Assembly (NCBI RefSeq): GCF_011320225.1
Contig: NZ_JAAOEN010000004.1
Coordinates: forward strand, 490,973-554,972
DNA: 64,000 nucleotides
Direction: 5' to 3'
DNA from: Phytoactinopolyspora limicola
Lineage (GTDB): Bacteria; Actinomycetota; Actinomycetes; Jiangellales; Jiangellaceae
Below, one piece after another: positions 21,119 to 63,545 of this stretch. Numbering within the stretch: the first letter of the stretch is position 1; the number at the start of each line of letters is the position of its first letter. Below the pieces are notes generated by a model. The model saw only the letters and a program-made list of their open reading frames with translations, was not told the origin of the DNA and did no database searches. Made by a program: the position numbers and the translations under genes.

Positions 21119-21122
<4 letters not shown>
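20109..21122 (-). CDS. P1/S58-family aminopeptidase (DmpA/BapA-like)
   Basis: This 337-residue self-processing peptidase has the expected ENFDLPGVLVG-like N-terminal domain, GGSVHGLGAAAGV and CGAGRSATVGKV in the middle, and the autocleavage site before T259 or T260 in VGGNTTLTVLVTNV. DmpA/BapA relatives release N-terminal residues from D- or beta-amino-acid peptides. It begins with GTG overlapping the stop of the ABC ATPase gene (GTGA), so it is translated with the transporter. This coupling argues that the imported ligand is a peptide with unusual residues. Confidence 0.87.
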
Positions 21123-21975
<853 letters not shown>

Positions 21976-21979
<4 letters not shown>

Positions 21980-23028
21980 CGGCCGCCACCTATCTCTGCC
22001 GGTATGTCCGTCGGCCGGGCTGGTAGTGGCAGGGCGGCCGTCGACCGCAGCTCTTCGGCCCGGTGGCACAACACTGCCTGCCCGTTCACCCGTGCCAGCG
22101 GCGGCCGTTCGGTAGCGCATCGGTCGACGACGAACCGGCACCGTTCGGCGAACGCACAGCCCGGCGCCGGACCAGCCAACAGTGGCGGCCGCCCCGGGAT
22201 CGGCGTGAGCCGCTCCCCGGGCCGGGCATGGCTCGGCGCTGACGAGGCCAGCGCGTGGGTGTAGGGGTGCGCGGGCCGGGCGAGTACAGCGTGGGCGGGA
22301 CCGTCTTCGACGACGCGTCCGCCGTACATCACCACCACCCGCGCACAGCGCCGAGCCACCGCGTTGAGGTCGTGGCTGAGCCAGAGGACGGTGGTGCCTG
22401 CTGCCCGGGTCAGGGCGAGGATGGTGTCGAGCACCTCGTCGCGGACCTGGCTGTCGAGCGCAGCGGTAGGTTCATCGGCCACCAGGACCCGCGGCTGCAC
22501 GGCCATCGCCATGGCGAGCGCCACCCGCTGGGCCATTCCTCCGGAAAGCTGGTGTGGGTAAGCCCGGGCGACCCGGGCCGGATCGCGTAGCCGGACCTGA
22601 TCCAGCAGGGCCGCCACGGCGTCTCGGGTGGACCGCCGTGGACTCGGCTGGCGGCCACGCAGCGCCCGTCGTACCTGTGCCCCGACCCGCATGGTGGGGT
22701 CGAGTGCACCGATCGGGTCTTGGAAGACGAAGCCGAGTTGGTCCCGTCGCAGCTGCCGGAGCGGCTGCGGGGCCAGATCGAACACCGAGTGACCTGCGAC
22801 GTGCATCGAACCATGCCGCCGCTCGGCCCTGCTGGGCAGCAGCCGGCCGAGGGCCGCTCCCAGGGTCGACTTGCCGGATCCGCTCTCGCCGACCACACCA
22901 ACCGTCTCGCCCGCGTCAACGGCCAGGTCGACGCCGTCGAGCGCCCGTACCGGCCCATGGGCGGCCAGGTAGTCGACCACGAGGTCGCGGGCGACGACCA
23001 CCGGCTCCGCCGGCGTCAGCTGGTTCAT
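21976..23028 (-). CDS. Peptide ABC transporter ATPase (DppD/OppD-like)
   Basis: This 350-residue ATPase has Walker A GVVGESGSGKSTL, Q-loop FVFQDP, signature LSGGMAQRVALAMAMA, Walker B VLVADEPTAALD and a C-terminal oligopeptide-family extension with cysteines (CAFAERCRFVVDRC) that in homologues can hold an iron-sulfur cluster. Four-base ATGA overlaps join it to both neighbours, so the two permeases, two ATPases and the peptidase form a single tightly coupled unit. Confidence 0.92.
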
Positions 23029-23843
23029 GTCAACGACCTCGCTTCCCGTGGTTCGAGCCGATCTCGCAGCCCGTCACCCAGCACGTTGATCGACAGGATG
23101 GCCAGGACCAGCACCACCCCCGGCGCGATGACCAGCCACGGCGCCGCCACCATATAAATGCCGCCCTGGGCGATGAGCACGCCGAGCGACGCCTGAGGTG
23201 GTTGCACACCGAGGCCGAGGAAACTCAACCCGCCTTCCACCAGGATGCCGATGGACAACGCGTACGTCCCCTGCACCGCGATGGTGCCCCCGACGTTCGG
23301 AAGCACGTGTCGCACCAGCATGGTGGGCATTCCGACCCCGCTGACAACGGCCGACGTGATGTAGTCGCGGCTAGCCACGGTGGCGGCCGCGGCCCGGACC
23401 AGCCGGGTCATCAGCGGAATGGTGACGAGCACGATGGCGGCCATCGCGGCCGGCCGGCCGGGTCCAACAACAGCTGCCACCAGGATCGCCAGCACGATGG
23501 ACGGAAAGGCGTAGAGGACCTCCACCAACCGCAGCACCGCCTCATTGACCGCACCGCCGACGTACCCAGCCACGATGCCCAACGCCGTACTAACTACCGC
23601 CGTGACCAGCACCGCGAGCGATGACAGCAGCAGCGTCGCCCCAATCCCTTCCAGCAGCCGCGGCAGCAACGATCGGCCCAGGTCGTCGGTGCCGAGCCAA
23701 GCGGCGGCGCCGGGGGGCCGCAGCCGGTCGCCGTCGATGGCCGCCGGATCGCCCGCCAGCCCAAACCAGCCGGCGACGGCGGCGGCGACCAGCACCATCA
23801 GGCAGATCAGCCCGCATCGGGACAACCAGTCGAGCCGCTTCAT
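23025..23843 (-). CDS. Peptide ABC transporter permease (DppC-like)
   Basis: This 272-residue inner-membrane permease has an N-terminal helix, the DppC-type periplasmic segment with HPLGTDDLGR-like WLGTDDLGRSLLPRL, and five to six further membrane helices. The EAA loop that contacts the ATPases is VVSGVGMPTMLVRHVLPN. It starts at an ATG overlapping the stop of the DppB-like gene. With the product of the gene at 23840 it forms the membrane channel. Confidence 0.9.
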   Translation of the reverse strand: MKRLDWLSRCGLICLMVLVAAAVAGWFGLAGDPAAIDGDRLRPPGAAAWLGTDDLGRSLLPRLLEGIGATLLLSSLAVLVTAVVSTALGIVAGYVGGAVNEAVLRLVEVLYAFPSIVLAILVAAVVGPGRPAAMAAIVLVTIPLMTRLVRAAAATVASRDYITSAVVSGVGMPTMLVRHVLPNVGGTIAVQGTYALSIGILVEGGLSFLGLGVQPPQASLGVLIAQGGIYMVAAPWLVIAPGVVLVLAILSINVLGDGLRDRLEPREARSLT

Positions 23844-24823
23844 GTGCGCCTCCCCGCGGTGGTGACGCCAAGGCGTGGATCGATCAGCCCGACGACGAGG
23901 TCAACAACGACGTTGAGCACGATGAACAGGGCGGCTGCCAGCAGCACCCCGGCCTGGACCACCGCGTAGTCGCGCCGGCCGACCGCATGCACGACGTAGG
24001 AGCCCACACCGGGCAAGTTGAACAGGTACTCGACGATGATGGCTCCCCCCAGCAGGTAAGCACTCACCGTGGTGAGCAAGACGAGTACCGGCGGCGCAGC
24101 GTTGCGCAGGATGTGCTGGCGGATGACCGCCCACGGTGTCTCTCCTCTGGCTACCGCCGCCGTCACATACGGCTCGACCAACACGTTCAGCACGGCGTCG
24201 CGGGTGGTCCGGGCGGTCGCCGAGATGGCGAAGACGGACAACACGGCGGCCGGCAGCAGCATGGCGCGCAGGTTGCCCACGGGGTCATCACCGAGCGGCA
24301 CGTAGCCCCCTACCGAGAGGCCCAGCGCATACCGCGAGAACAGGTACACCACGATGCTGCCGAGAACGAACTCCGGAAGGCTCACCCCGAGCCCGCCGGC
24401 CAGCCGGCCCACCACCGCGCCGCGTCCGCCCGCGCCAGGCCCGCCGGCCCGCACCGCCGCCAGCACCCCCAGGGGCACTCCGATGAATGCCGCGGCCAGG
24501 ATCGCCATCACGGTCAGCTGAGCGGTGACGGGGAAACGGCTGGCCAGTTCAGCGCCGACCGGCTGCTGACTGACCATCGACGTGCCGAAGTCGCCGCTTA
24601 GCGCCGCGGTGAACCAGTTCCAGTACTGCACGAGCACGGATTGGTCCAGGCCGTACCGCTCGGCCAACTCGGCCCGCTGTTCCTCGGTGGCGAAGGGGCC
24701 GAGAATCGTCTCGGCGAAGCCGCCCGGCATGGCCCGCACCGCGATGAAGATCAGGATCGAGACCCCGACCAGCGTGCCCGCACCGCTCAGCGCCCGCCGC
24801 AGCCACCAGGTGAACAGTCTCAT
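23840..24823 (-). CDS. Peptide ABC transporter permease (DppB-like)
   Basis: This 327-residue permease has the classic DppB opening (RRALSGAGTLVGVSILIFIAVRAMPG), a periplasmic loop with YGLDQSVLVQYWNWFTAALSGDFGTS, and the EAA loop ARGETPWAVIRQHILRNA. The start at 24823 is chosen because GGGGAG precedes it and it lies 22 bases after the binding-protein stop; the frame is open to 24910. It is the first of two permeases in the operon. Confidence 0.9.
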   Translation of the reverse strand: MRLFTWWLRRALSGAGTLVGVSILIFIAVRAMPGGFAETILGPFATEEQRAELAERYGLDQSVLVQYWNWFTAALSGDFGTSMVSQQPVGAELASRFPVTAQLTVMAILAAAFIGVPLGVLAAVRAGGPGAGGRGAVVGRLAGGLGVSLPEFVLGSIVVYLFSRYALGLSVGGYVPLGDDPVGNLRAMLLPAAVLSVFAISATARTTRDAVLNVLVEPYVTAAVARGETPWAVIRQHILRNAAPPVLVLLTTVSAYLLGGAIIVEYLFNLPGVGSYVVHAVGRRDYAVVQAGVLLAAALFIVLNVVVDLVVGLIDPRLGVTTAGRRT

Positions 24824-24845
24824 CGTCTCCCCGCCGCCCCCGGAC

Positions 24846-26684
24846 CTACTGTTGCCCGGACCGGGTCTCGGCGAGCCGCCGCAGCGGGTTGCCGTACCCC
24901 TCGGTGGCATACACCGTCGGGCTGATGGCGTCGGCCCGGTAGCCGACCGCGATCGGCCGGGTCACCAGCGGCAGCATCTGAGCGTCGGCCTCGACGGCCG
25001 CACACAGGTCGGCCATGAGCTGCTCCCGGTCCGGGCCCGGAGGTGCGGTGTTGACCGCGTCGATCAGGCTGCTCAGCTCGTCGTCGGCCGCCATGAAGCC
25101 AAGGTTGAACCCAGCGACGTCCGGGTTCCACCATTTGGTGACCATGCCCGGGTCGGCATAGCCGGCGAACCACGACAACGCGGCGTCGAACTCGGCCGGG
25201 GCGGCGCCGTAGACCTTACCCGCCCAGCTCGCCTCCTCCAGCTGTTCGATCTCCACCGACACCCCGATCTCGCGCAAACTCTGCTCGATGACCTGGGCCA
25301 CAGCCGGCGCCGGCTCGGTCGAGAAGATACTCAGCTGGAACGTGAGGTCGTCCGCGCCCGCCTCGCTGAGCAGCGCACGTGCGGCGTCGAGATCGCCGGT
25401 GGCGGACGGGAGGTCGCCGGGTTCGCAGGCACCGGGCAGTCCCACGGGGGTAACTCCAGTGGGGTTGACCAGACCGCCGAGCGCGGCGTCGGCGATCCGC
25501 TGCCGGTCGACGGCGAGGTTGATCGCTTGGCGGACCCGCGGGTCGGCGAATGGTGAATCCGGAGCCTGCGAGTTCAGCATCAGGTAGTAGTAGTCAGTGC
25601 TGGCCTGGGATAGAACCTCCACCTGGGGTACACCACCCAGTACCTGCGGGGCGTCGACGTTGCCCAACGTGATCATCGACGCGCTACCGTCGCGCAGGGC
25701 CGCGATCCGGGACCCTTCCTGCGGGACGATCGAGATGTCGATACCGTCCAGGGCCGGCTGGTCCGGGTGCCAATACCCCTCGTTGCGGGCGAACCGCCAC
25801 GACACGTCCGGGCGATGATCCTCCACCACGAACGGGCCGGTGCCCAGCATCGTGGTGTCGAGGTCGACTGTGCCGTCGGCCACTTCCCGCATAGGCAGGA
25901 TGGCGGCTGGCACGTTCGCCAGCGCAGCCAGGAACGGAGTGTACGGCTCGGCGAGCACCACCTCCACCGTCGCGTCGTCGGTTGCGCTGACCGATTCGAC
26001 CGGCCCGAGCTGACCGGTCCACACCGAGCCGAGTTCCAAGAGCCGTTCGAGGCTGCCAACGACGTCGTCGGCCGTCATCTCCCGCCCGTTGGAGAACTCC
26101 ACTCCCGACCGCAGATGGAAGACGTAGGTGGTGTCGTCGGGCTGCTCCCAGCTCTCCGCCAGCATCGGCTCGACCTCGAAGTCCGGTCCAACGGTCACCA
26201 GAGTTTCGTATACCAAGCCCATGACCTGCCACGACGATGCCAGGTCGGCCCACTGCGGGTCGAGGCCGGTGGCGCCTACGGCATCAATGTGCACCTGTAG
26301 GTCCAAGGTTCCGCCCGGTGCGAGCGACTCGTCGACCGTGGACAACAGCCCGGGCGCGGCCTCCGCGGCCGGGACTTCTGGATCCGCTTCGGATGTCGGA
26401 TCGTCGGCGCCGGATCCACCACCGGCGGACCCGCACGCGGCGACGACCAGGGCGGTACATGCCACCCCGCAGGTCATCCACGCGCGCCGTCCCACCGCCA
26501 CTGTGTTTCGGGTTAAGAGCTTCCGCCAATAGATCGGTGGAGCTGAGCCAGTGGAGGAGCGAGTATGGCGAGGCGGAGGAGGAGGTCGATACGGAGCCAT
26601 CGATCGACGACGACAGCGAAGCCAGGCGATGCTCATCCGCTGGCTCAGCCCGCCAGCATCTATTGGCGGAAGCTCTAAGCCCAT
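24846..26684 (-). CDS. Peptide ABC transporter substrate-binding lipoprotein, 5' end interrupted by an in-frame insertion
   Basis: This is an SBP family 5 (DppA/OppA-like) extracellular binding protein with LAESWEQPDDTTYVFHLRSGVEFSNG, AEPYTPFLAALA and DPRVRQAINLAVDR motifs. The ATG at 26684 has a strong GAGGAGAGA site, but after only three codons (M-G-L) the frame enters a 159-bp element with 18-bp terminal inverted repeats. The frame stays open through it, then continues as T-R-N-T-V and a typical lipoprotein signal (RRAWMTCGVACTALVVAAC, lipid-attached Cys). Removing the element and one TTA repeat restores a normal 30-residue signal peptide. As it stands, translation from 26684 gives 612 residues with 54 extra residues before the signal. 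Internal starts at GTG 26501, GTG 26495 or ATG 26477 could rescue export. Confidence 0.85.
   Translation of the reverse strand: MGLELPPIDAGGLSQRMSIAWLRCRRRSMAPYRPPPPPRHTRSSTGSAPPIYWRKLLTRNTVAVGRRAWMTCGVACTALVVAACGSAGGGSGADDPTSEADPEVPAAEAAPGLLSTVDESLAPGGTLDLQVHIDAVGATGLDPQWADLASSWQVMGLVYETLVTVGPDFEVEPMLAESWEQPDDTTYVFHLRSGVEFSNGREMTADDVVGSLERLLELGSVWTGQLGPVESVSATDDATVEVVLAEPYTPFLAALANVPAAILPMREVADGTVDLDTTMLGTGPFVVEDHRPDVSWRFARNEGYWHPDQPALDGIDISIVPQEGSRIAALRDGSASMITLGNVDAPQVLGGVPQVEVLSQASTDYYYLMLNSQAPDSPFADPRVRQAINLAVDRQRIADAALGGLVNPTGVTPVGLPGACEPGDLPSATGDLDAARALLSEAGADDLTFQLSIFSTEPAPAVAQVIEQSLREIGVSVEIEQLEEASWAGKVYGAAPAEFDAALSWFAGYADPGMVTKWWNPDVAGFNLGFMAADDELSSLIDAVNTAPPGPDREQLMADLCAAVEADAQMLPLVTRPIAVGYRADAISPTVYATEGYGNPLRRLAETRSGQQ
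26517..26675. mobile_element. 159-bp MITE-like insertion with 18-bp perfect terminal inverted repeats
   Basis: The ends are identical in inverted orientation over 18 bases (GAGCTTCCGCCAATAGAT at 26517-26534; its complement at 26658-26675), and imperfect pairing continues further inward. TAA (TTA on the gene strand) directly flanks both ends at 26514-26516 and 26676-26678, as a 3-bp target duplication. It carries no transposase. The GAG-type ends and TNA target fit the IS1031 group of the IS5 family (inference). It sits in the first codons of the binding-protein gene. Confidence 0.85.
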
Positions 26685-26733
26685 GGTTCTCTCCTCGAAC
26701 GGATCGGGTCCGGGCCCCGGCGGGCCGGGACGG

Positions 26734-28821
26734 TCAGGAACAGGAGCAGTGATGCGAAGGCGACCTATGGCCGGTAGAACGGTCGGATGCCGGATGTGTG
26801 GTGTGCGGCGTGCGGTGAGCCGTGGGGTGAGCGGCGGTGCTACTGGTGTGGCACGCCGCACCTGATCCGATGCTGGGTGGTACGTCGAGAGTCGGGTTGC
26901 GGTCGAAGAAACCTACCGGGCGGAGGGTGAAGCCACACCGGTCCACCGGCATGATCGGCCAGTCCTCCGGTCTTGGAACATGGGTGAGGCCGAAGGTGTG
27001 CCACAACACGACGTCCTGACCGTTCAGGCTCCGATCGGCCGCCGTGTAGGCGGGTAGTCCGGCGCCACCGGGATGCTGGTTCACCAGATCACCGGCGGGA
27101 TACCGTTCGGCCGGGTGGTATTGGGTGACCCACAGATGGTGGGTGGCGAAGGTGGCCCGTCGGCGAATCGACGAACCCTCCGCTGCCATGAGGGTGGGGC
27201 TACTCTCCGGGTACAGCGTGTACCCGACAGGCTGACCGAACCGGTTGGGTGCGGTCGGATTGCTCACCCGCCACGTTCGGCCGGTGCTCCCGTCGGCATC
27301 CCTGACCGCCTCCGTCTCGGTCTCCAGCCGGGTGATCACCTGCTGGAAGGCGGTGCCGAACGGGTTGTCCGGGCCGGCCGCACGGGGCACCATGTCGACC
27401 TCGTCGACCGCGTTGGGCACCCCGTCCACCATCATGTCCAGCCGCGCGCCGAACAGGTGCTGATGGTATGGAGCCGCGAGTCCTGGTGCCAGCTCGGAAG
27501 CGTACGGCTGGGCTCGCTCGTCGTACACCCCGGTGAACACGATGCCGGTGGCTTTGACCTCCAGTTCGATGGTGCCGTCCAGGTAGAGGTACCAGTAGAA
27601 CCCGTAGTCGTAGTTGCCGACGGTCACGAAGAAGGAGATCACCAGCCGGCGCTGACGGCGGGTCTCGGCCGAACCGTTGGCCGGGTCGGTATGTTTCCAG
27701 AGGACGCCGTAGTCCTCCTCGTGCATACATACGGCATTGCGGATGGTGCGGGGCGAACCGTCGTCGTTGGCGACGGTTACGTCGAAGTACGTAATCTCGC
27801 CCAGGCAGTCGCAGCCCAGCTCGAGTGAGTTCGCGAGCTTGCCGAGCTGGTACTCGCCGGTGTCGAAGTAGTTCTGCCAGAACCGGACCGGGCTGGGGTC
27901 CGCGTACGGGACCAGCATCTCCGCCACCGACGCGCGGTACACGATCGGCCGGATGCGGCCTGCGTCGTCGAAACCGATCTGGTGTAGCACCAGCCCCTCG
28001 CGCATGTCGTATCCGAGCCGGACGCTCCACTTCTCCCAGGTGACGACGTTGCCGTCGATGTGGAAGCTCGGCCCGTCCGGCTGGCTGATCTCGATCGGAC
28101 GCTGTGTCGTCCGGTAAGGGCCGAACGTGCCGGGCAAGTGGTAGTCGCCGGTCTCCTGCGGCACGGGGAGAACGCCGCTGTCGATGATCTCCAGCACCCG
28201 CTCCTCGATCAGATCGACATAAGCCACCAATCCGTCGACCGGATGTGCCCACGGCAGGCTCGTCGGTGTGGGCTGGTGATGCGCCAGCACCCGGGCGAGC
28301 CGGCGGCCGTGCTCGTTCGGGTGGTCGAAGTGGCCGGCGGTCAGCGCCGCCATGTAGACCGTGTCCATGTCGGTGATTCCCCGCTCGGCCAACGCCTTCA
28401 TCCACTGCGGGTGTTCCTTGAGCACCCGTCGCACCAGCGCGTGGTCACCGTCGAGCAGTGGAACCTGACCTTCCGTCGACGGGTCGATGACCCGGCGCGA
28501 CTCCACGCGCCGGTCGGTCAGTGAGACCACGACGTCGTGTGCCGTCCCCAAGCTCAGATCCAGCAGGAATACCCGAGCCCGCCGGGCCGGCGCGGTGCCC
28601 CGGCCCGTGTCGAAATCCAGGACCGCACATTTCGCCGGTTCCTCGAGGCCGAGGTACGCCACCCGGGTTGTGTCACCGACCTCTAGCAGCGCCGCCACGT
28701 CGGTGATCTCGGCCGGGGACAGCGGGTCGAGCGGGTGCCGGACGGCCGCGGGGCCAAGGCGACGGGCGTCCGCGCTGTTGGTGCTGTCCACGTCCCGGAC
28801 GTTGTCGGGCTGTACGGTCAC
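26734..28821 (-). CDS. Copper-containing primary amine oxidase
   Basis: This 695-residue quinoprotein oxidises primary amines to aldehydes, hydrogen peroxide and ammonia. The topaquinone precursor is Y404 in VGNYDYGFYW, the catalytic base is D320 (WQNYFDTGEYQLG), and the copper ligands are H453 and H455 (YHQHLF) and a His in TFGLTHVPRPEDWPIMP. No signal peptide is visible. The GTG start at 28821 follows AGAGGAG at 4 bases; the frame is open to 28974. The C-terminal 30 residues are low-complexity His/Ser/Thr-rich. It lies 49 bases upstream of the binding-protein gene in the same direction and probably leads the operon. Confidence 0.92.
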   Translation of the reverse strand: MTVQPDNVRDVDSTNSADARRLGPAAVRHPLDPLSPAEITDVAALLEVGDTTRVAYLGLEEPAKCAVLDFDTGRGTAPARRARVFLLDLSLGTAHDVVVSLTDRRVESRRVIDPSTEGQVPLLDGDHALVRRVLKEHPQWMKALAERGITDMDTVYMAALTAGHFDHPNEHGRRLARVLAHHQPTPTSLPWAHPVDGLVAYVDLIEERVLEIIDSGVLPVPQETGDYHLPGTFGPYRTTQRPIEISQPDGPSFHIDGNVVTWEKWSVRLGYDMREGLVLHQIGFDDAGRIRPIVYRASVAEMLVPYADPSPVRFWQNYFDTGEYQLGKLANSLELGCDCLGEITYFDVTVANDDGSPRTIRNAVCMHEEDYGVLWKHTDPANGSAETRRQRRLVISFFVTVGNYDYGFYWYLYLDGTIELEVKATGIVFTGVYDERAQPYASELAPGLAAPYHQHLFGARLDMMVDGVPNAVDEVDMVPRAAGPDNPFGTAFQQVITRLETETEAVRDADGSTGRTWRVSNPTAPNRFGQPVGYTLYPESSPTLMAAEGSSIRRRATFATHHLWVTQYHPAERYPAGDLVNQHPGGAGLPAYTAADRSLNGQDVVLWHTFGLTHVPRPEDWPIMPVDRCGFTLRPVGFFDRNPTLDVPPSIGSGAACHTSSTAAHPTAHRTPHTTHPASDRSTGHRSPSHHCSCS

Positions 28822-28853
28822 AACACTCCTCTGCTCGACTGGGCGAACCGGCG

Positions 28854-28873
28854 ATGCCGGAACGTTCCGGCAT
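28854..28873. promoter_or_regulatory. LacI-type operator palindrome
   Basis: ATGCCGGAACGTTCCGGCAT is a perfect 20-bp palindrome with the central CG and AA-CG-TT core typical of LacI/GalR operators. It lies 33 bases upstream of the amine oxidase start and 180 bases from the divergent LacI-family gene, so it is the likely repressor site for the amine oxidase and peptide importer operon. Confidence 0.7.
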
Positions 28874-28957
28874 TGCCGGACAACGTACCGGGGCGATCCG
28901 TCGTACACAACCCCTCGCCGCAATCCGATACCGGCCGTTAACAAACCCACCGTCACC

Positions 28958-29028
28958 GACTCCGCTACCGCCACATGGCACTCACCGCCTCCCGAGCCGC
29001 CTTAACACCACCTGGCGGTAGCGGAGTC
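28958..29028. repeat. 16-bp perfect inverted repeat near the LacI-family promoter
   Basis: GACTCCGCTACCGCCA (28958-28973) and its exact complement (29013-29028) are separated by 39 bases, just upstream of the regulator's -10 box. It may be a second regulator site or an RNA hairpin in the divergent transcript. Confidence 0.6.
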
Positions 29029-62306: not shown

Positions 62307-63545
62307 TCATCCGACGACGCGCCTCGGACGAACCACCGGCGACTCTTCGCGCCGCTGGTTATGGCCGGGGGTGCGTAGTGACAGGGTCCACGCACCCCCG
62401 GCCAGCGCGACAACCGCGGCCACCCCGAACGCCCAGGGAAGTCCCATCGCCGTGGCGACGAACCCTAAGAGGATCGGACCACCACCGATACCAAGGTCGA
62501 GGAAGACACTGGCGGTGCCCGACGCGGCACCACGTTCGGACGGCTCGGCCGTGGCGAAGATCGCGGCGAAGAACGCCGGCGTGCTGAAGGTGACACCAAG
62601 CGCCAACAAGACCGCTCCTAGAACAACCCCCGCCGGGGCCGCCCAGAGGGCGATCACCATCAGGCCGGAGGCGATCGTCACCAGCGCGGCGGCCCCGAGG
62701 ATGAGCGGCGGGAAGCGGTCGTGGACCCGCGCGAAGGCGATCCGGCTCACCACGACGACACCACCGTAGACGATCAGCGGCGTGCCCGTTCGGGCCATTC
62801 CCACGTCGTCGGCGTGCAGCGCGGCGAACGCCAGAAAGACCCCCATGGCCACCACGGAGGCGAAGAACCCCAAGGCCGGCGGCAGCGCCTTCACGTGGAT
62901 GAGTCGGGGCCGATGCCCCGGGACCGGCTGCCCGACCCGAGTCTCGCCGACGTAGAGGGCCGCCACCACCGCGAACAGGGCCAGCCCGGCGGCGGCGTGC
63001 CAGGCCGTGGTGAATCCCCATCTGCCCATAACGAACTCGCCCAGCAGCGGACCGCCCGCGATGCCGAGGTAAAGCCCCAGCGAGTTGTAGCTCAGTGCTT
63101 CACCGACGCGGCTGGGTGGTGCCAGGTCGGCCACCGCCGCGAACGACGCGACGAAGAACGCGGCCTCGGCGACGCCGAGAAGAAGCCGGATCGCCACGAC
63201 CGCCGCCAGCGTGTCGACGTGTGCGGTGGCGACCATACAGATGGCACACAGGGCGGCACCCGCAACCAACAGGGGTCGCCGGCCGACGGTGTCGGTGAGC
63301 CGGCCGGCCACCGGGCGCAAGGCGAGCGCGGTGACCGCGAACGCACCGAACGCGATGCCGGCACCGGCGGTGCCGGATCCGACCGGGCCGGTGACGTAAT
63401 GCGGCAGCAGCAGGAAAGACATGCCGATAGCGGTGAAATACGCGAGGTCGGCGACGGTCAGCCCGACGAACGCCGGAGTGAACAGACGCTCCGGCGCCGA
63501 ACCGACGGGACGCCGCGAGGAGGTGGTCGAGGTAGCCATACCCAC
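62307..63545 (-). CDS. MFS transporter
   Basis: This 412-residue transporter has 12 predicted membrane helices. The intracellular loop 2-3 motif is GRLTDTVGRRPLLVAGA, and motif C-like glycines appear in LYLGIAGGPLLGEF, suggesting a drug or metabolite exporter. The cytoplasmic loop between helices 6 and 7 carries VGQPVPGHRPRLIHVK. A GTG at 63545 or ATG at 63539 may be the start; no good ribosome site is seen. It converges on the PPOX gene with a 3-bp gap. Confidence 0.88.
   Translation of the reverse strand: MGMATSTTSSRRPVGSAPERLFTPAFVGLTVADLAYFTAIGMSFLLLPHYVTGPVGSGTAGAGIAFGAFAVTALALRPVAGRLTDTVGRRPLLVAGAALCAICMVATAHVDTLAAVVAIRLLLGVAEAAFFVASFAAVADLAPPSRVGEALSYNSLGLYLGIAGGPLLGEFVMGRWGFTTAWHAAAGLALFAVVAALYVGETRVGQPVPGHRPRLIHVKALPPALGFFASVVAMGVFLAFAALHADDVGMARTGTPLIVYGGVVVVSRIAFARVHDRFPPLILGAAALVTIASGLMVIALWAAPAGVVLGAVLLALGVTFSTPAFFAAIFATAEPSERGAASGTASVFLDLGIGGGPILLGFVATAMGLPWAFGVAAVVALAGGAWTLSLRTPGHNQRREESPVVRPRRVVG

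Follow-up and report, generated by a model that had tools for sequence, protein, structure and literature searches.

The window, a stretch of 64,000 nucleotides from Phytoactinopolyspora limicola, contains a gene for an SBP_bac_5 lipoprotein in which a small mobile element lies a few codons after the start. A copper amine oxidase frame precedes this gene and two permease genes and two ATPase genes follow it. The features are as follows, in positions of the window.

21119 to 24910, minus strand: two permease genes and two ATPase genes, which belong to the same peptide-type ABC transporter.
24846 to 26684, minus strand: SBP_bac_5 lipoprotein gene with the insertion (PF00496, E 6.6e-79).
26493 to 26501, minus strand: GTG-GCG-GTG, putative internal starts just downstream of the element.
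26514 to 26516: left copy of the target-site duplication TAA (TTA on the coding, minus strand).
26517 to 26675, plus strand (the core-sense strand): MITE, 159 bp.
26517 to 26534, plus strand: left terminal inverted repeat GAGCTTCCGCCAATAGAT, 18 bp, perfect.
26556 to 26634, plus strand: structured core, matched by a covariance model (G000:C34:517528-517606, 82.8 bits).
26658 to 26675, minus strand: right terminal inverted repeat, the same 18 bases as the left end.
26676 to 26678: right copy of the duplication TAA (TTA on the coding, minus strand).
26685 to 26696, minus strand: Shine-Dalgarno-like GAGGAGAGAACC, adjoining the ATG, as read from the sequence.
26737 to 28974, minus strand: copper amine oxidase frame preceding the lipoprotein gene, the same neighbour as in element-free relatives.

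The original prediction placed here a 159-bp element with 18-bp perfect inverted ends, and it is present at 26517-26675 with TTA on both sides on the coding strand. A repeat finder draws its arms as 25 nt at 92%, flanking bases included. On the minus strand, the gene reads ATG-GGC-TTA, then the element, then TTA-ACC-CGA, which puts the insertion after codon 3. The element plus one TAA amounts to 162 bp, or 54 extra codons without a stop on the minus strand, confirming the claim that the gene is kept open with 54 additional residues.

The element is a MITE, as proposed: it is short, has inverted ends and a TNA duplication, occurs in nine genome copies and is missing from orthologues. The further copies that were sought in the genome all span the 159 bp; the eight others are 93.7-96.2% identical to the window copy, giving a set of nine at 93.7-100%. 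TNA is found on both flanks of all nine copies, and the flanks are identical in six, the remaining three differing at the middle base (TGA/TAA, TAA/TGA and TCA/TTA). At the orthologous locus, three examined genes lack the element (G002, 72% identical; G003, 71%, in a record that has runs of N further into the orthologue; G015, 49%). They start directly with a short lipoprotein signal and have an amine-oxidase reading frame upstream and, with proteins 49-72% identical, represent element-free orthologues rather than a base-exact empty site. Some match to the element was found in 25 of 99 genomes searched, its own included; among the matches listed, full-length ones occur only in its own genome and the others cover the interior only. 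The exact 18-base end was also found in 12 scattered stretches of a named collection, one end each and in unrelated taxa, which were taken as chance.

Five of the nine copies follow a reading frame of the same orientation at a distance of 0-81 nt, the window copy runs antisense to the lipoprotein gene, and the other three show no clear orientation. Four of the nine are located at the stop codon of a reading frame or up to 39 nt after it, and not inside the frame. In two insertions (L002 and L007) the TAA target doubles as the stop of the reading frame upstream, hence the TNA duplication restores the stop and would offer a harmless route of insertion.

Shortened forms are also found in this genome. 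Two 30-bp palindromes (G000 C34:315806-315835, L010, and C12:499843-499872, L113) consist of one MITE end joined to the last bases of the other end with an identical junction; L010 has TAA on both sides and L113 has TAA/CAA. These palindromes represent either a recurrent deletion or a mobile mini-form. Two forms of 32-33 bp (G000 C34 ~62595-62627, L011, and C1 ~692513-692544, L012) are consistent with a deletion between a direct repeat CCGCCA within the element, and their flanks no longer match on both sides. A lone MITE end beside TTA with no visible partner (G000 C40:87761-87778, L114) is a remnant or chance.

A TNA duplication and ends beginning with GAG resemble those of the IS1031 group of the IS5 family. 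Profile searches of the 40 contigs of the genome gave no match to PF13340 (DUF4096) or PF13359 (DDE_Tnp_4) and a single match to PF01609 (DDE_Tnp_1), in a gene without the MITE's ends. The resident parental IS5-family transposase that had been anticipated is therefore not among the matches to these three families, in a search that covered these families and end-like sites other than four sites with 3 mismatches.

The original prediction made no mention of a conserved folded core. The central 79 nt of the element recur in elements with different ends, and the interior-only matches in other genomes (query ~49-112) are hairpin elements that have other ends and many of which are CTAG-bounded. Among 49 core elements, drawn lengths assigned by a script are 150-170 nt in 29, run past the likely ends in 14 and are shorter in 6. 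The common part has a fixed order, in which an outer stem is followed by the strand AAGGCGGAGGAGGAG, a hairpin, the strand CGACGACGACAACGCA and the other side of the outer stem. In the window copy, the two loops read GAGGCGGAGGAGGAG and CGACGACGACAGCGA, a few changes from the commonest form; the model was built without this copy, and the eight sister copies supplied 5 of its rows. Core elements of the CTAGGGGGTGTCT type belong to the same family of organisms as the window genome. The P. limicola genome also contains a second core-bearing MITE family (C38:205698-205775, C1:816992 and C1:774684), with ends TGTGTCGCGCCGGAGATCCG or close to it and identical cores, mostly CTAG-bounded.

The stems of this core covary. 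When 34 cores are aligned plainly with MAFFT, both sides have changed in 11 of the 14 pairs, while the loops AAGGCGGAGGAGGAG and CGACGACGACAACGCA are nearly fixed; 85.7% of the cells are paired versus 72.9% in shuffled alignments. The covariation score is 0.413, compared with 0.013-0.142 for slid versions, and none of 500 shuffles reaches it, for a structure that was proposed after inspecting the sequences. A model-fitted alignment of 39 distinct rows, which leans to the model, gives 13 of 14 pairs and a score of 0.745 versus at most 0.116. RNAfold draws the internal loop of a sister copy as isolated G-C pairs with two-by-two loops between them; by sequence, these loops are tandem G.A pairs. 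Searches of Rfam 15 with 10 loci at E up to 10 returned no match to the core, the two matches obtained lying outside it and far below threshold. Likewise, no paper on a shared structured core was found in a literature search covering few subscription journals, and the papers listed for four strings of the core are unrelated by title.

This covariation bears on the simplest account of the element, an ordinary MITE that arose as a deletion derivative of one insertion sequence, its interior being common by recent descent and its fold a by-product of long inverted arms. A hairpin does follow from inverted repeats, most core matches fall in one class and the nine copies of the genome are near-identical, all as this account would have it. 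However, the stems are rewritten by paired changes around nearly fixed loops, the ends differ between families and the core recurs in another class. In addition, mismatches are strand-asymmetric in the inner arms and not at the ends, subject to the G-rich bias described below. Taken with these observations, descent from a single insertion sequence appears improbable as the whole explanation.

The asymmetry was counted at 40 chosen loci from 37 genomes, using an alignment score that treats G.T and A.C alike. At positions 1-14 from the core, 67 G.T and 4 A.C mismatches were found, and positions 15-35, outside the model, contain 90 and 10. From position 36 on, in the outer ends, the counts are 22 and 14 (p 0.24). 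A first, redundant set of 57 loci had given 234 G.T and 34 A.C in total. When 40 of 44 loci were reduced to 26 clusters, G.T:A.C was 37:10 in the middle zone and 8:8 in the outer zone. In the same clusters, however, A.G:C.T was 32:7, G.G:C.C 6:0 and T.T:A.A 2:2 in the middle zone, with A.G:C.T 14:6 and G.G:C.C 5:0 in the outer zone; the excess of A.G and G.G means that a G-rich strand bias may contribute to the asymmetry. The core-sense strand forms the more stable fold at 39 of the 40 loci, the two strands being equal at L222. On our reading, the ends appear to be kept as DNA and the inner hairpin as the fold that one strand adopts, with RNA the simplest candidate.

Strand asymmetry would also result if selection acted on a single strand of DNA, and the core could accordingly be a single-stranded DNA hairpin, formed during replication or transposition and bound by a host factor or the transposase. 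Tandem G.A pairs are stable in DNA too. However, the outer ends are the part that a transposase should recognize, and they are strand-symmetric. The action reported for ERIC is on mRNA (PMC2229807), which also speaks for RNA, and a role as single-stranded DNA is considered unlikely.

The favoured interpretation, considered probable, is a non-autonomous miniature transposon that combines DNA-mobile ends with a structured inner RNA module on one strand. The DNA module would comprise the terminal inverted repeats and the TNA duplication, and would be moved in trans by a putative TNA-duplicating DDE transposase. The RNA module would consist of the inner arms and the 79-nt core, one strand of which would fold into a long hairpin whose internal loop hardly varies and whose tip covaries. 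Since the inner arms and the core appear to be kept while the mobile ends differ, selection probably acts on the transcript of that strand. The function that we infer for the core module is most likely an effect on the processing or stability of mRNA through recognition by an RNase or an RNA-binding protein, as reported for ERIC; the conserved fold covaries, and its action as RNA rather than as single-stranded DNA, like any effect on mRNA, would follow from this reading.

The spread of the core was followed with two covariance models. Model R1, whose rows come solely from the class of the window genome and for which at most 15 candidates were scored per genome, matches 72 of 296 genomes of that class and 23 of 114 genera; a matching genome often contains more than one copy. 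As 23 of the 72 matching genomes had supplied model rows, the independent matches amount to 49 of 273, and the core loci are related rather than independent of one another. A 321-base query with one core element matched 12 plasmid records, all from Streptomyces, over 21-42% of its length. In 8 cellular genomes of other groups, R1 had no match at E 0.001, the best reaching 0.055.

R1 matches 7 of 229 genomes in the class to which an Oxalobacteraceae MAG belongs, and 8 of the 9 loci have the hairpin core with both loops, L220 being doubtful. Pairing outside the model span exceeds that of shuffles by more than 5 standard deviations at L221 and L223, which are near-duplicates, and by about 1 to 5 at the other loci of this class. 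At two loci of this other class (L224 and L223), the core forms the tip of a very long hairpin (-151 and -104 kcal/mol, respectively).

Model R2 includes six loci of the Oxalobacteraceae-MAG class and L151. It matches 8 of 240 genomes in the class of an Acetobacteraceae MAG, where L230 and L236 look real by eye; outside the model, pairing is not above shuffles at L230 and is above them in one reading only at L236. Both loci are core-like hairpins followed by a T run and have a similar CTAGAGC left flank; they may belong to a distinct family that terminates transcripts as well. For Streptococcus cristatus, R2 matches 3 of 250 genomes of its class and only L238 looks real, a locus at which the opposite strand folds better (-57.1 vs -44.2). 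Most of the 11 genomes that R2 matches in the two further classes look like chance, indicating that the E-values of the model are too small, a tendency against which the search tool itself cautions.

Viral contigs were searched with the pattern GCAAGGCG-N20-45-ACAACGCAGC, which gave 83 stretches. Of the 80 that were read, only L151, from a viral contig of 30% GC, had an 8-pair tip and more than 4 outer pairs; because the pattern preselected its loops, only its fold counts. L238 and L151 have loop sequence in common and different tip stems. A search of phage records for the L151 element gave no match.

Among known systems, ERIC is one of the closest. ERIC is reported to destabilize the upstream mRNA with orientation being crucial (PMC2229807), and to affect mRNA through an RNase E site (PMC10969869, PMC2229807). 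Like the present family, ERIC / IRU / RU-1 are small elements that form a hairpin over their whole length, and co-transcription and in-frame intragenic cases have been described for them in parts of PMC2229807, PMC10969869 and PMC2759123. The available text of PMC2267715 presents ERIC as a structured repeat family and surveys mycobacteria, and names no actinobacterial relative of ERIC. Correia / NEMIS are similar by description, as small MITEs whose transcript is processed through the hairpin (PMC10969869 and PMC2229807, in part).

At the level of sequence, the match to ERIC is confined to loop motifs. The motif AAGGCGG, which like CAACGC was picked after seeing both ERIC and the core family, marks the inner end of the 5′ arm of 4 among 6 ERIC copies, and 3 of these 6 have CAACGC at the 3′ arm. 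The consensus of the window's class has both, and the window copy reads GAGGCGG (1 change) and CAGCGA (2 changes). The same strand gives the more stable fold in 6 of 6 ERIC copies, and in their outer arms G.T exceeds A.C in 5 of 6, with a tie in one, on small counts. In contrast, ERIC is ~127 bp long, with other ends, a longer tip hairpin and nothing alignable beyond the loops. With default filters, R1 found no ERIC match at the yeiL locus of two strains, and with filters off it matched 1 of 5 ERIC copies (L219, 13.5 bits, E 0.0064). R2 again matched L219 only (14.0 bits, E 0.011), so that the models detect 1 of 6 copies, and weakly. Kinship of the core family with ERIC is hence tentatively suggested rather than shown.

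A broader possibility, put forward tentatively, is that one old structured RNA module occurs in many MITE families whose ends are unrelated, across actinobacteria, proteobacteria and Bacillota and with ERIC included; such MITEs would form a superfamily defined by RNA and not by transposase. In this module the internal loop (AAGGCG.../...CAACGC), with tandem G.A pairs, would be nearly fixed, and the tip would covary freely.

As for the host gene, the insertion is real and of a known kind, since in-frame MITE insertion has precedents in ERIC and in the Rickettsia palindromic elements (RPE). Such insertion in genes is reported for ERIC/RU-1 in PMC2759123. RPE, likened by description only, are MITE-like and lie in frame inside protein genes (PMC2229807), with the difference that retention as coding sequence is doubtful for the family of the window element. 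The suggestion of an evolving coding MITE, under selection for openness and giving the lipoprotein a useful N-terminal peptide, proved weak and is very improbable: minus-strand frame 0 is open in all nine copies, their length with the duplication is 162 and PMC2759123, in part, provides precedents, but the copies are closely related, a shuffled element has a given frame open in 24% of cases and at least one of six frames open in 82%, 19 related CTAG-bounded elements have (length + 4) modulo 3 equal to 0, 1 and 2 in 5, 10 and 4 cases, and the four copies at or after stop codons are not within a frame. Moreover, 4 of these 19 relatives are open in all six frames, which shows that openness is cheap in GC-rich sequence.

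According to the two-module interpretation, the element would have inserted after codon 3, in frame by chance, with its RNA module antisense to the lipoprotein gene; the lipoprotein mRNA does not contain the sense fold of the core. The native ribosome site and ATG are retained despite the insertion, so translation can start and run through 54 MITE residues ahead of the native signal. Signals for export normally stand at the N-terminus. The minus strand of the element has a fold of -86 kcal/mol, versus a mean of -51 for base-shuffled copies, which begins at the fourth codon and should hinder initiation of lipoprotein translation. A start at GTG 26501 or 26495 could possibly restore a short signal peptide, judging from the reading frame. 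The expected outcome would be lowered translation and export of the lipoprotein, with partial rescue from GTG 26501 or 26495.

As a whole, the original prediction is partly supported, and the insertion offers a clean natural case of a MITE that lengthens the N-terminus of an exported protein. The shared structured core deserves a phylogeny-corrected study and transcript data. It touches on an old question, the role of ERIC-like repeats and their persistence without a visible transposase. If the interpretation is true, a covarying and apparently strand-specific core that outlives changes of the mobile ends would point to a common and testable function, involving a host RNase or RNA-binding protein, and ERIC-like repeats would be findable by their structure rather than by their ends.
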